NCBI GenBank assembly: GCA_005116955.1
Contig: SWDI01000005.1
Span: 219,263-264,827 of the forward strand
Direction: 5' to 3'
Length of the DNA stretch: 45,565 bases
Source: Nitrospira sp.
Lineage (GTDB): Bacteria > Nitrospirota > Nitrospiria > Nitrospirales > Nitrospiraceae
The notes beneath the pieces are model-generated. The model saw nothing but the letters and a program-made list of their open reading frames with translations, searched no databases and was not told where the DNA came from. A program made the translations under genes and the position numbers. Below, one piece after another: positions 6,687-14,256 of this stretch. Position 1 is the stretch's first letter; every line of letters begins with the position of its first letter.

Positions 6687-7058
6687 TTACTTATAGCGTG
6701 TTTCAAACGCCGAGACCGTCAGTTCGTACTGCCGTCGGCAGTCGGCACAGCGCAGCCGTACCAGATCCTGAAAGACATCCATCTCGCGAAGTGTCAAAGA
6801 GGCATGATGAGTTGAAACACACGCCTTGAGGAACTCTTCACCCGGCGGCTCGTCTCGTGAAGTACCTGCTCCCGCCATGTGTTGGGCCGAGGCTGCGTGC
6901 GACGTGACCGTCGCGACCGTCAGATAGTGAGCCGACTTGCATGAACTGCAGATGAGAACCAATGCGTTCTCATCCGTCATTCGCTTAGCGGTCACACACA
7001 GAGGGTGGACAGACCAACACTGCTGAAGAAAGGCCCCACTTCGGATGACCTGCGCCAT
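6687..7058 (-). CDS. Small protein with two C-H-C-C zinc-finger-like repeats
   Basis: A 123-residue protein made of two similar halves. Each half contains C-x3-H, about 18-19 residues, then C-x2-C followed by a Y-x-LTV strand. In the first half these are C14, H18, C37 and C40; in the second they are C80, H84, C104 and C107. The halves (ICSSCKSAHYLTV and RCADCRRQYELTV) clearly derive from each other. This spacing would suit tetrahedral zinc binding. No enzyme motif is present, so an adaptor or nucleic-acid/protein-binding role is possible. It lies in tandem with a PHD/RING-like gene (7268-7558). Confidence 0.65.
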   Translation of the reverse strand: MAQVIRSGAFLQQCWSVHPLCVTAKRMTDENALVLICSSCKSAHYLTVATVTSHAASAQHMAGAGTSRDEPPGEEFLKACVSTHHASLTLREMDVFQDLVRLRCADCRRQYELTVSAFETRYK

Positions 7059-7267
7059 AATTGTTTCAATCAGCCGTCATGCGACATGAGATTTGCGCAT
7101 CAATGTTCAACTGACCGGGCATCATGATCACACGGAAGGAGAGCAGAACCGCTTTTGCCCGATGCCGGCCAGCAAGACCAACAGGACCTTCGTACCGTGA
7201 ATGGCGTTGGAGAAGACACTGAACCGCCCCCGGCGCAAGGGCGCAGGACGAGACGACGAACAGGAAT

Positions 7268-7558
7268 TCATGACGGGACTGCCACAGGAGGCCCATCCTT
7301 CTTCAACGAAGGAGCGACTATCCCCTCCTGAACCGAACGACAGGTTTTGCACACCCGTGGCCGTGCTTTCAGGAAAGAGACCTTCCCACTGGCAAGACAA
7401 CTGTAATGGACGAATTCGTCACAGAGCGTGCAGCGAGACCAGCCTCCTCGGAGCATCGTTTTGTCCCGATAGAGGTTGTCCTGGCACACCCGGCAAAGCC
7501 TGGCCTCGACCCCGAGCAACATCGGCTCCCATTCCCCGCCGCCTTTTCGAATACTCAT
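7268..7558 (-). CDS. PHD/RING-like C4HC3 zinc-finger protein
   Basis: Starting at the ATG ending at 7558, the 96-residue product has C22-x2-C25, C43-x2-C46, H51, C54 and C70-x2-C73. This is the C4HC3 order and spacing of eukaryotic PHD/RINGv fingers and of the small prokaryotic RING families (Prok-RING type). The core reads RCTLCDEFVHYSC. A longer frame to 7597 is open but adds residues with no clear ribosome binding site. Prokaryotic members of this class are often linked to ubiquitin-like or membrane-associated systems; nothing nearby shows ubiquitin-like genes here, so the partner is unknown. A 209-base non-coding gap separates it from the other zinc-finger gene. Confidence 0.6.
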   Translation of the reverse strand: MSIRKGGGEWEPMLLGVEARLCRVCQDNLYRDKTMLRGGWSRCTLCDEFVHYSCLASGKVSFLKARPRVCKTCRSVQEGIVAPSLKKDGPPVAVPS

Positions 7559-7824
7559 AAGAGTCGGAGTATAGCGGGGCGAACAGCTGGAAAACAAGCG
7601 AGAGCGAGGTGCAAAGGGCGAACGGGTGCCGATGGTTATGTTTGACTACAAGACGCCACCCTATCCTTCTATGAATACACCTGTTACGCACATCTTCCGA
7701 TCGCAGTCGCGTGCATCAAAAGAGATTCATGAGGTGAATACAATCTGGGCGATTTTAGTGGGATCGCTCATGAGTAAGGCGAATTGAACACTCCCCACCA
7801 TGCGTTGGGCAATAGGGTTGGACA

Positions 7825-8283
7825 TCATAGACGGCCACTCTTCGTGGCACAGACGAGGTTCAGCTGACGCTCACGTTCTGCGACGGCAAGACGCTTAGCC
7901 TGGCGTTCTCCATAGTGAGACACCATGAACTTGCGCTTACGACTGTCGCCTTGTTCGTCGACCCAGGAGGCCAACCAAAAGACACGAATGGACCCGGTCG
8001 TTGCATTGTCCACTTGTTCGTATCTGCCGACGCCTGGAATACCCGATGTATTGTTCCGACGAAGACGAGTACGGACCCATATAGCATGGGCGTAGGCTGA
8101 GTATCGCCGAAGCAGTTCACCTCGATAGGCCTCAGCCGCCTTCAAGGCCTTGCCTTTCCCTCCATGGATTGCATCGGAGAACGTCTTCACGGCGATATGG
8201 TTGTGTCGTTGCACCGTGACCCGCCACGCATGGGTTCGGCTTGCCTCATGATCGATGCGGGTAATGTTGCGGAAAGCAGGCAT
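7825..8283 (-). CDS. AP2/ERF-like DNA-binding domain protein
   Basis: The product of about 152 residues contains two related segments. The first runs NITRIDHEASRTHAWRVTV followed by a K-AxxY helix. The second runs NNTSGIPGVGRYEQ, then FWLASWVDEQG, KFMVSHYGERQAKRLA and a final R-rich helix. The second has the layout of bacterial AP2 domains (S/T-G-I-x-G-V, W-x-A-x-W, a beta strand, then A-x-x-x-A helix), which bind DNA and often occur in mobile-element endonucleases. No nuclease motif is visible, so a transcription factor or remnant of a homing element is possible. The start is uncertain; ATG codons end at 8283, 8295 and 8346. Confidence 0.6.
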   Translation of the reverse strand: MPAFRNITRIDHEASRTHAWRVTVQRHNHIAVKTFSDAIHGGKGKALKAAEAYRGELLRRYSAYAHAIWVRTRLRRNNTSGIPGVGRYEQVDNATTGSIRVFWLASWVDEQGDSRKRKFMVSHYGERQAKRLAVAERERQLNLVCATKSGRL

Positions 8284-8840
8284 GTTGTAAAGCATTCTCG
8301 GCGGCGCGGAGCAGCCAGAGGTTGTACAGCCGCTGGTTCGGGACACACTTCGCGGTTCGAATTACGAGTGCTTACCGCGAAACAGTTTGAGTGACGCAAC
8401 GCGTCGCCCAAACAATGTTTAGCCCATTCATACAAGAGCCGGATCTTCGACTAATCCGTGACTCGCCAATGATTCGTCGGAATCATGCGCCACAATCATC
8501 CCTACTCCGATCAGTGAGAACGGCACCTGTTCCTGTTGGACCAACACATTGCGAAACACGACGCATTTTCCTCTGATCCAGTGATACCGTCAAGATTCAC
8601 CCTCGGGCACATGACGATCACCCACCCCTGATTCCTTTTACATAACCCGCATTGTCTCATAATTACGCGCATGTACCGAGCACCTCCCATAACCATAAAC
8701 CTCAAATCAATCTCGCGTGCGCGGTGCGCGAGCACAGGAGACCATCAAGCTCACTCCCACCCTACCCCGTTTGACTCATCTTTAATCGTTTGTTACTCTC
8801 CGCGCGAGTGAGGCCAGTTTCCCAACGAGAGCACAATTTC
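8284..8840. other. Non-coding region upstream of ispA
   Basis: No convincing gene is visible between the divergent AP2-like gene and ispA; open frames here are short and overlap on both strands. A small GC hairpin lies at 8712-8732 (CTCGCG, nine-base loop, CGCGAG). The stretch must contain the promoters of both flanking genes, but none is clear by eye. Confidence 0.4.
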
Positions 8841-9731
8841 ATGAACATTGCAGATTATCTGGAACAGAAACGCATTGAGGTTGACCGTTTTCTCGACTTT
8901 GTGGCCCCACCGACCGCGGTGCCGCCGACGACCTTGCACGAGAGCATGCGTTATAGCCTAATGGCAGGAGGAAAACGGGTGCGGCCGATTCTGACGATTG
9001 CAGCAGCGGAAGCATTGGGGCAGACCCCACCTGGTCTCATGGCAGTCGCCTGTTCGCTGGAATTCATCCATACCTATTCGCTAATCCACGACGATCTGCC
9101 TTCTATGGATAACGATGACTTTCGCCGGGGAAAACCAACGAATCACAAAGTCTATGGCGAGGCGATGGCCATCCTTTCCGGGGATGCCCTGCTCACAATG
9201 GCCTTCAACCTGGTTAGCCGGCCAGATCTCATGAAGGCCTGCGATCCGGTGCGGCAAGTCCGCATCATTCAAGAATTGTCTTTTGGCTCCGGCAACATTG
9301 GCATGGTGGGTGGCCAGGTGTTCGATATCCAAGCTGAAAATAAGGACATCGATCTCCCAACCCTTCAGAACATTCATAAGCACAAGACCGGCATGCTCAT
9401 GCGCGCTGCGGTCCGCATGGGCGCCATTGCCGCTGGAGCAAGCGACCGGCAGCTTGATGACATGACCGGCTATGCTGAAGACATCGGGTTGGCCTTTCAA
9501 ATCGCCGATGACGTGCTGAATGTGACCGGCACCAGGGAAGAGCTGGGGAAGAATCCCAACACCGATGCTGAGCGCGGGAAAAAAACCTACCCGACGTTCT
9601 ACGGCGTGGATGGGGCGAAAAAACTGGCCGACGACTGTGTGACCCGCGCCATCAATCGCCTGTCTTCGTTTGGGCCTTCCGCCGATCCCTTGCGGGAAAT
9701 CGCGCGATATATCACAAGCCGCAAGAACTGA
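8841..9731 (+). CDS. ispA: Farnesyl/geranylgeranyl diphosphate synthase
   Basis: A trans-isoprenyl diphosphate synthase of about 296 residues, starting at MNIADYLEQKR. It condenses isopentenyl diphosphate with allylic diphosphates to make C15/C20 chains for quinones, carotenoids and other isoprenoids. The substrate-binding region GGKRVRP, the first Asp-rich motif (HDDLPSMDND followed by RRGKPTNHK) and the second motif (FQIADDVLN) are all present, as is the LGK...D...K-TYP signature. The second motif ends in Asn, as in some bacterial GGPP synthases, rather than the usual Asp. The window frame opens at 8790, but the ATG at 8841 matches the family N-terminus. It is followed by a carotenoid gene, supporting a role in that pathway. 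Confidence 0.93.
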   Translation: MNIADYLEQKRIEVDRFLDFVAPPTAVPPTTLHESMRYSLMAGGKRVRPILTIAAAEALGQTPPGLMAVACSLEFIHTYSLIHDDLPSMDNDDFRRGKPTNHKVYGEAMAILSGDALLTMAFNLVSRPDLMKACDPVRQVRIIQELSFGSGNIGMVGGQVFDIQAENKDIDLPTLQNIHKHKTGMLMRAAVRMGAIAAGASDRQLDDMTGYAEDIGLAFQIADDVLNVTGTREELGKNPNTDAERGKKTYPTFYGVDGAKKLADDCVTRAINRLSSFGPSADPLREIARYITSRKN

Positions 9732-11950: not shown

Positions 11951-12693
11951 TGACTATCACTACGTAGACGTACAGCAACTTGCGTGCCTGCGGCCATGTC
12001 GTTCGTTGTTGACGATTACCTGATCGTAAGTGTTGGAAAAAGCTGACCAGCGCCGATCGGGATCATGCGATCAGCATTGGGGTGACGCACTCTGATCGAG
12101 AGGAATGGATCTGATACGTACAGCCGCCGTATCGGTTTCGATACGAAGAGACCCATGGCAAACCATCTGTTCTGTTGATCTGTGCGACTCGTTTACCAGC
12201 GGTGCAGAGTAGTTTCCTTCATAAACTGACAGGAGCCTACAGCGCAGCTATAGGTCACTTACCGACGAGCTGCTTTTCATCACGTGCTGACCAGAGAACA
12301 CCTGCACCGCCTGTTGGATCGCTGCAAGAATCTCGCGATGTCTACGAGGTCTTCGCGAACTCAGAAACTGGCAGTCGCCTCTTCGACCACACGCTTGATC
12401 TCCGAGGATTTGCTGGTTGAGATCTCTCGTATGCTCTTAATCAAGACCTATCCTGTTTCATGATAGAACAAGCGAGTGATGCGTGGTTTTCCCGCGTAGG
12501 TCACGACCTTCATATCTACACTCTGCCACACAATTATTATTCCTACTCATCTGTGAACTCTGCGCGTCTAGGCTGAAAACGCTTGATACTGTGGATGATC
12601 TGGGCTCTTGACCACGAGGAGCTGCTATCCCGATTGAGAGGTATGCCTCTTGCTGTCCGTAAACTATCACTCATTTATACAGAGGAGGATTAC

Positions 12694-14256
12694 ATGGAGC
12701 CAACATTGGCCATTCGACAGCCACAGAAAAGGCGTACGACACATCGCCTCTTGTTCTTCCATCCACGCGCAATGGTCCTGTGCCTGTGCATGACCGCACT
12801 CGGCATCCCCACTGCCGGACTTTGCGCATCGACGCCATCTGACCTTCCACTGTTTCTGGATGCCCCAAGCAATGTTCCCCCTGCGATTGACCAAGCATTT
12901 TCGTCACCTCAGATGTCCAAACGATGGGTGCGCCGTCACCGAAATGTCGGGCTCAATCCTGCTGCGTTGGAGGCCATGAAACGCGCACGCAAGGAGACGA
13001 AACCTGGCCTCACGCTGGACCTGTTCGATGCCGGGACTCGCACACTGGAGATCGATGAACCGGAAATCCAACCCAATAAGGCGAAGGTGTGGCGCGGACG
13101 GGTGCGAGGTGAACAGGACAGCGACATTACCTTGGCGGTACGCGGTACCAAGATGGTCGGAACCATTACCTCGGGTCAGCGACTCTACAAAATCGAGCCG
13201 ACCGAGGACAACCGCCACCGTCTCGTCGAAATAGATGAAGACGCCATGCGACCGGACCACCACCCACTCATGGTGCCCGATGATGGCACTCCCGCAGAAC
13301 CTCCCGCCCCAGAGCCCAACCTCCAGCAGCCTGATGCCCGTTCGGCTGCCACGACCGACACCGTGACAACCGCAGCCGCGACGACGAACACCGTCGTCGA
13401 CCTATTAGTCGTCTACACCTCTACGGCAAGAAGCAAGCAGGGTGGCCAGGCTGCCATGAATGCGTTGATTGCGATGGGCGTCGATTTGGCCAATCAAGCT
13501 TACAAAAACAGCCAAATCGCCATGCAGCTCAGGCTGGTCCGCGCTGCTGAGGTCACCTATGTGGAAACGGGCAACATCAGCACTGATCTTTCGCGCTTGC
13601 AAAGAACCAGCGATGGTTTTCTGGATCAGGTTCATCAATTGCGCAATCAATATAAGGCCGACCTGGTCGCGATGATCGTGGACAACGGCGGGCCTTATTG
13701 CGGCATCGCCTATGTCATGGCGAACGGCCCACGGGCGAGCTTTGCCAGTTGGGCATTCAGCGTGACAGATCGCGACTGCGTGTCGAATAACACCCTCACC
13801 CACGAACTGGGACATAATATGGGGGATGCGCATGATCGCGCGAGCGGCGGCACCGGTGTCTTTGCCTACTCATATGGATATCGGGATCCCATCGGAAAAT
13901 TCCGAACGATCATGGCCTACGCCTGTCCCAATGTCTCCTGCCCGCGCGTGAAGTATTTCTCAAACCCGAAGATCTTGATCAACGGTCGGCCGGCCGGGAT
14001 CGATCACAGGATCAACCCGACAAACTCCGCGGACAATGCCCGCTCCATGAACGAGGTCCGGAACGTCATTGCGGCCTGGCGCACAGGAACTGCAACTTCC
14101 GCCGCAGCTCCCGACGGCTTGAAAGATTCCCGTGCAAAGTTGCGCGAAGATTCTCGCGATGATTCGGATGATGATTCGGATAACGACTCGGATGACGACT
14201 CAGACGATAAATCAGGTAACGATTCTCGGGGAAAGTCTCGTAGAACTCTCCCTTAA
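12694..14256 (+). CDS. Secreted reprolysin-like metzincin protease
   Basis: A 520-residue preproprotein starting at MEPTLAIRQ, chosen because AGAGGAGG lies just upstream. A signal-like hydrophobic region follows (LCLCMTALGIPTAGLCAS, about residues 29-46), then a pro-region (about 60-190) and a catalytic domain from about 235. Zinc site HELGHNMGDAHD begins at about residue 370 and fits HExxHxxGxxH; the Met-turn is near residue 407 (TIMAYAC). Metzincins of this kind degrade extracellular proteins. The final 40 residues are an unusual Asp/Ser repeat (DDSDDDSDNDSDDD), probably calcium-binding or a flexible tail. The next gene resembles its pro-region. Confidence 0.9.
   Translation: MEPTLAIRQPQKRRTTHRLLFFHPRAMVLCLCMTALGIPTAGLCASTPSDLPLFLDAPSNVPPAIDQAFSSPQMSKRWVRRHRNVGLNPAALEAMKRARKETKPGLTLDLFDAGTRTLEIDEPEIQPNKAKVWRGRVRGEQDSDITLAVRGTKMVGTITSGQRLYKIEPTEDNRHRLVEIDEDAMRPDHHPLMVPDDGTPAEPPAPEPNLQQPDARSAATTDTVTTAAATTNTVVDLLVVYTSTARSKQGGQAAMNALIAMGVDLANQAYKNSQIAMQLRLVRAAEVTYVETGNISTDLSRLQRTSDGFLDQVHQLRNQYKADLVAMIVDNGGPYCGIAYVMANGPRASFASWAFSVTDRDCVSNNTLTHELGHNMGDAHDRASGGTGVFAYSYGYRDPIGKFRTIMAYACPNVSCPRVKYFSNPKILINGRPAGIDHRINPTNSADNARSMNEVRNVIAAWRTGTATSAAAPDGLKDSRAKLREDSRDDSDDDSDNDSDDDSDDKSGNDSRGKSRRTLP

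Follow-up and report, generated by a model that had tools for sequence, protein, structure and literature searches.

The locus analysed here raises the question of what a small, stand-alone two-zinc finger might do in a bacterium. Most known two-zinc fingers of the FYVE/PHD class are eukaryotic and serve to read histones or membranes. The window (the whole stretch of DNA analysed, 45,565 nucleotides) carries on its minus strand a gene for a 96-residue protein (7268..7558; ATG at 7558-7556, stop at 7270-7268), identified as a two-zinc (C4HC3) finger by its translation, order-wide conservation and ligand invariance. The coordinates, the count of eight ligands and their C-C-C-C-H-C-C-C order, as given in an initial annotation, were borne out by the translation, with the strand established as minus. 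The ligands of this protein (P0001) are C22, C25, C43, C46, H51, C54, C70 and C73, spaced C-x2-C-x17-C-x2-C-x4-H-x2-C-x15-C-x2-C, and no cysteine lies outside this set. All eight fall within a computed zinc-binding core of residues 22-73 (7340..7495, minus), whose columns are conserved in both alignments described below. The gene is single-copy in the window's genome. Its order includes the nitrite-oxidising Nitrospira, and almost all genomes of that order keep this protein without a described function.

Of the 79 genomes from the genus, 72 carry a relative of the finger; for the order the count is 183 of 196, and 147 of 150 when only high-quality genomes (≥90% complete, ≤5% contaminated) are considered. 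Profile searches covered the window's own phylum. Of 269 genomes searched from the class, 210 had the finger, and of 395 from the phylum, 139; all 139 belonged to the window's order, and the phylum search gave no match in the listed genomes from the other families of the class. A single-protein scan of the genome collection reached close relatives, and the best 80 of 129 confirmed loci were used. The window and 76 of these 80 loci made up an alignment of 77 rows (A3); a second alignment of 27 rows (A2) was picked from four families. Two scan records stand under other names, 'Nitrosospira' (L060) and 'Proteobacteria' (L080), and we take both for mis-binned contigs: L060 groups among Nitrospira loci in a tree made from two neighbouring proteins of 71 loci plus the window, and L080, outside the tree, was placed by its syntenic neighbours alone. 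One further genome (G192) has the finger split over two reading frames.

Loss of the ligand cysteines in homologues was the observation that the initial annotation had named as fatal to its claim, and the ligands proved stable. All eight are invariant in A3 (77/77 rows) and present in 26 of the 27 rows of A2. The remaining row carries H51 to Cys, an exchange of one zinc ligand for another; H51 is thus the sole varying ligand and the other seven are invariant. Exactly seven cysteines were counted in 25 of the 27 rows, one of the exceptions being the H51 to Cys row. Twelve non-ligand residues (R31, T34, G38, G39, W40, R42, V50, L55, K64, R66, P67 and R68) are also invariant in A2, and the net charge of the core is +5 to +15 in every row. 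Thirteen dN/dS comparisons were made against the window; dS was saturated in two, and the remaining 11 gave values of 0.06-0.25. Judged by these sequence comparisons, the finger is a real, constrained gene.

Conserved neighbours were compared, as had been proposed for this locus. In other lineages a gene for a protein of approximately 111 residues, here called c5, lies directly downstream of the finger gene. Its product carries a conserved YEFxY. Of 17 loci, 9 encode a version with three hydrophobic stretches, 7 a version with two and a single locus one with four; c5 is probably a membrane protein, and the stretches would form membrane helices. No good Pfam or NCBIfam match was found for c5; a weak match to MerT (best E 0.0036) was seen in 2 of 15 rows. 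Of the 196 order genomes, 142 have the gene. Where both genes could be placed, c5 followed the finger on the same strand with 150 bases or fewer between match ends in 133 of 136 genomes; in the three exceptions it was approximately 310-320 bases off (two genomes) or on another contig (one). The two reading frames overlap by four bases in 9 of 17 loci when the longest ORFs are taken. In the window, the place held by c5 in sister lineages is a gap (7059..7267, minus) with no c5 match, and none was found elsewhere in the window's genome. Sequence was sufficient to judge 79 Nitrospira loci; c5 is present in 43 and absent from 36. Its absence needs two changes on the tree, which means two losses of c5, each with the finger retained. 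Because the window's lineage lost c5 yet a constrained finger stayed, c5 is not the finger's sole partner, and the lineages without it point to a second one.

Our preferred reading, which we hold tentatively at a probability of roughly 40%, is that the finger is a basic cytosolic zinc adaptor of the FYVE/PHD class, ancestrally docked at the membrane with c5 and translated from a leaderless message. The protein would fold around two zinc ions as a treble clef of this class and act as a binding adaptor, with no enzymatic role. In the ancestral state it would have been made together with the c5 protein encoded directly downstream, would most likely have docked on the inner face of the cytoplasmic membrane via c5, anionic lipid or both, and would there have held a further partner. 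In the window's lineage c5 would have been lost and the finger kept under strong constraint. A promoter at the start codon would yield the leaderless message. The profile is that of a binding module, since the protein is small and basic, is without a recognised catalytic family and has invariant non-ligand residues. Docking at the cytoplasmic membrane is the simplest reading because the gene usually found beside that of the finger encodes a probable membrane protein. Contact of the finger with c5 or with lipid would follow from this scheme, and adjacency of genes does not prove it. The suggestion in the initial annotation that such a finger recruits partners agrees with the conservation, the predicted fold and the near-constant neighbour.

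Five rivals were weighed; in order of falling weight these were nucleic-acid binding, sequential zinc sites, a redox or zinc sensor, a toxin-antitoxin pair and a RING-like ligase. The first, somewhat unlikely in our view, holds that the finger is a nucleic-acid regulator whose basic surface sits on DNA, RNA or the ribosome, with c5 a separate or sequestering partner. The core is basic in 27/27 rows, R31, R42, K64, R66 and R68 are invariant in A2, and the finger stays where c5 is lost, all of which would suit such a role. The near-constant adjacency to the gene of a probable membrane protein would be unexpected, however, and no Pfam or NCBIfam family exceeded its cut-off for the finger where scores were seen. 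The structures matched by the predicted fold are mostly protein- or lipid-binding fingers, which also counts against nucleic acid as the target.

Sequence-family comparisons were made with the 27 rows of A2 and with decoys, the latter being 12 rows in which the eight ligands were fixed and all other positions shuffled. Pfam matches in A2 were all below threshold and comprised C1_1 (26/27 rows), PHD (24/27), zf_VAL1_N (24/27), PHD_4 (23/27) and DZR (11/27). The decoys matched C1_1 in 7/12, PHD_4 in 6/12 and PHD in 4/12. PHD (PF00628) scored 15.2 bits on the window's protein and at best 18.2 bits (E 0.0026) among the 27 rows, against a cut-off of 24, and the best E-value of the decoys was similar. 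Since decoys that share only the ligands match too, the PHD and C1 matches are weak evidence of homology, and the argument from Pfam similarity to kinship with PHD or C1 was dropped. Ligand spacing would explain much of the similarity; matching is commoner in real rows, and some of the signal may be real. The zf_VAL1_N and DZR profiles matched 0/12 decoys and so separated the real rows, although they were below cut-off where bits were seen.

The initial annotation had described the spacing as PHD/RINGv-like, and here its two halves parted. PHD fingers have C4HC3 ligands with x4 between the second and third ligand pairs (a spacing shared with FYVE), and the finger fits this pattern; RINGv has C-x1-C and x7 before the histidine, which the finger does not fit. 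In comparison with the families it had named, PHD was weak and below cut-off as described, RINGv matched 3/27 rows (best E 0.054) and Prok-RING had no match to the window's protein in the Pfam scan. The zf-RING_2 profile scored 12.6 bits on the same protein against a cut-off of 27.3. No FYVE match stood among the 25 of 55 Pfam families listed for the 27 rows. Searches of NCBIfam and PHROGs gave nothing convincing for the finger, and a finger profile searched against PDB sequences reached a best E of 0.021, which was also unconvincing.

Structure prediction, likewise proposed for this protein, was run with AlphaFold and draws nothing from Pfam. The best model from A3 had a mean pLDDT of 67, with 64-84 in the ten-residue blocks that hold the ligands; the remaining four averaged a poor 41-46, and a model from an earlier alignment (A1) reached 57. 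Among the best 50 of 295 PDB matches from Foldseek, FYVE and PHD domains dominated; the best E was 0.022, and no match listed had E ≤ 0.001. VIA-align placed the FYVE-like finger of melanophilin first (Z 6.7), followed by other Rab-effector, RIM and FYVE fingers (Z 5.0-5.7); the eleven best rows were all FYVE or FYVE-like, and PHD fingers reached Z 4.5, where Z below 8 may reflect a common arrangement and rows within 1 are tied. The Foldseek and VIA-align matches listed were eukaryotic by title. As the model is of moderate confidence, no Foldseek match listed has E ≤ 0.001 and Z stays below 8, a two-zinc treble clef of the FYVE/PHD class is likely, not proven. Zinc binding and the cross-brace pairing of the ligands would follow from this predicted fold, and the two-zinc PHD-like finger of the initial annotation fits both the conservation and the model, which stands no further from FYVE-like fingers than from PHD. 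Passages of a treble-clef survey (PMC4999995) describe PHD and FYVE as cross-braced and name a joint FYVE/PHD group.

The moderate confidence of the model also leaves some room for the second rival, that the two zinc sites follow one another along the chain (a double zinc ribbon or a pair of knuckles) instead of interlacing the eight ligands in a cross-brace. The four C/H-x2-C pairs are compatible with two ribbons, and the double zinc ribbon profile, DZR, matched 11 of 27 real rows (best E 0.022) against 0 of 12 decoys. The Foldseek and VIA-align matches listed are, however, mostly cross-brace FYVE/PHD fingers, and the x4 between the second and third ligand pairs is PHD/FYVE spacing. Sequential sites were judged unlikely.

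The finger shares traits with each of the known classes compared and differs from each in others. It shares the C4HC3 order and spacing of PHD (PF00628, PF16866), and PHD structures are among its fold matches; PHD fingers have a conserved Trp two residues before the seventh ligand, whereas the finger has Arg68, invariant in A2. C1 (PF00130) is the Pfam family that matched most rows, but its best score of 23.6 bits is below the cut-off of 26.5, it covers part of the core and it matched decoys as well. The FYVE and FYVE-like fingers (Rab effector, Slp/rabphilin type) have the nearest predicted fold and similar ligand spacing. FYVE motifs comprise an RRHHCR-type basic motif, WxxD and RVC, with Cys at the position matching His51. 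The window's R68-V69-C70 reproduces RVC, and R68 and C70 are invariant in A2; GGWSRC and WEPM stand in place of the RRHHCR-type motif and WxxD, and the finger has His51 where FYVE uses Cys. FYVE domains bind phosphatidylinositol 3-phosphate. For the finger, the Arg two residues before the seventh ligand makes lipid binding a lead, which the absence of the RRHHCR-type motif leaves speculative. A fuller version, in which membrane targeting of the FYVE type has a core-genome equivalent in bacteria, is unlikely; here the finger, standing alone and present across the order, would recognise both anionic lipid and a dedicated small membrane protein at the cytoplasmic membrane and would be made from a conserved leaderless message.

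The surrounding genes were compared across the 80 loci, with counts limited by contig ends. The next gene downstream in the window encodes a 123-residue protein with two CxxC pairs (6687..7058, minus) and is syntenic in 78/80 Nitrospira loci; no Pfam match exceeded its cut-off. It evolves faster, its identity falling to 39% where that of the finger is never below 66%. The five genes after the finger (123-residue CxxC protein, 207-residue protein, lipoprotein-like protein, 366-residue protein and DUF2914 protein) were found in 78, 79, 77, 74 and 66 of the 80 loci, respectively. On the promoter side lies a divergent polyprenyl synthetase gene (ispA-like; 8841..9731, plus; PF00348, 1.8e-60), present in 53/80. 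Between it and the finger, the window has a gene for a 173-residue protein with two AP2 stretches (7825-8346, minus; PF00847, 29.2 bits against a cut-off of 33.3); it was found in 5/80 loci and is probably a recent insertion. Further out is a reprolysin-like M12 metalloprotease with an Asp/Ser-rich C-terminal run (12583-14256, plus; PF13688, 1.3e-21), found in 8/80 loci, to which flank limits apply. In more distant families the genes further downstream differ and c5 remains. In three loci of family f4 (L176-L178) the finger-c5 pair lies away from ispA, near genes which, from the look of their sequences, we take to be HflK and HflC.

These neighbours bear on the third rival, in which the ligand cysteines react or give up their metal and the finger serves to sense zinc or thiol redox state, or to store zinc. 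The protein is small and stand-alone and all the cysteines of the window's copy are ligands, as this would have it. No redox or metal-transport gene was recognised as a constant neighbour, the likeness of c5 to MerT being weak, and the invariant G38, G39, W40, R42, V50, L55, K64, R66, P67 and R68 suggest a specific binding surface instead, which makes a sensor or store rather improbable.

Mobile elements were also searched. Checking of 24 pattern-matching stretches in viral contigs gave no confirmed relative of the finger, and there was no match among 72,556 plasmid records or 50,697 phage records; a mobile or viral origin was rejected on these results. A toxin-antitoxin pair, with c5 as the small membrane toxin, would account for two small, tightly coupled genes and for loss of c5 while the finger remains, but the order-wide rather than sporadic presence and the absence from those plasmid and phage records make it very improbable.

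Least probable of all is a role for the finger as a RING-like E3, or within some bacterial system of ubiquitin-like conjugation: it has the C4HC3 order, described for prokaryotic RINGs in part of a review (PMC11354881), but the best RING-type E-value among the 27 rows was 0.018 and scanning of 11 neighbouring window proteins gave no match to a ubiquitin-type family. The ubiquitin-like process put forward in the initial annotation thus found no counterpart among those neighbours, which include no E1, E2, ubiquitin-like or JAB gene. A search for Prok-E2_B was positive in 0/57 genomes, with controls also at 0/14, and so speaks neither for nor against such a system. The adjacency of c5 hints at membrane work rather than a ubiquitin-like pathway.

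Among the open-licence papers listed, none was recognisable as describing the finger family, which is best taken as new within a known fold class. As a kind, two-zinc treble clefs have already been recorded in bacteria (Burroughs et al. 2011, as cited in part of PMC4506424). In the same part of that source, which cites Burroughs, Iyer and Aravind 2011, prokaryotic B-boxes are linked to folding, stability and proteolysis of membrane proteins. The finger resembles the prokaryotic RING/B-box binuclear treble clefs described there (PMC4506424) in being a bacterial two-zinc finger. It differs in that no membrane or peptidase domain is fused to it, a separate gene encoding the membrane protein, and in that the window's protein gives no Prok-RING match. 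The family would be set apart by being stand-alone, order-wide and tied to c5, with a model nearest to FYVE-like fingers. A near-universal, constrained finger with a probable membrane partner would give a testable bacterial case outside ubiquitin-like and defence settings.

Upstream conservation marked a -10-like box, TATACT, 9 bases before the ATG (7568..7573, minus) and a -35-like TTGTTT 18 bases before that box (7592..7597, minus). Of 105 distinct upstreams, 101 have TATACT with its end 6-10 bases from the ATG; the four exceptions are the three f4 loci (L176-L178) and L182. The control set comprised 557 in-frame ATGs close to where neighbouring ORFs begin, many of them not genuine start codons; 4 had the box at this distance. 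A TTG lies a further 17-18 bases upstream of the box in 100 of the 101 sequences that have TATACT; in 51 it is TTGTTT at 18. With a -10 box so near, transcription is predicted to begin no more than a few bases from the ATG; therefore the finger mRNA is probably leaderless or near-leaderless, and translation would be leaderless too. The motif was also considered as the mark of a regulon and rejected, the genome search with GCTATACT-N6-10-ATG giving 10 matches and its reversed control also 10.

The C-terminus of the finger varies among loci. It is VGS in L061, L062, L064-L067 and L069-L110 (AGS in L095), and four loci with this ending (L071, L072, L075 and L077) are without c5. In the window's clade the end differs from VGS, for example as PS or MP types. 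The window's finger ends in CCGTCATGA (7268-7276, minus), as do L031-L037. This ending recalls the four-base ATGA overlap with c5 seen in other lineages and is possibly a vestige of it.
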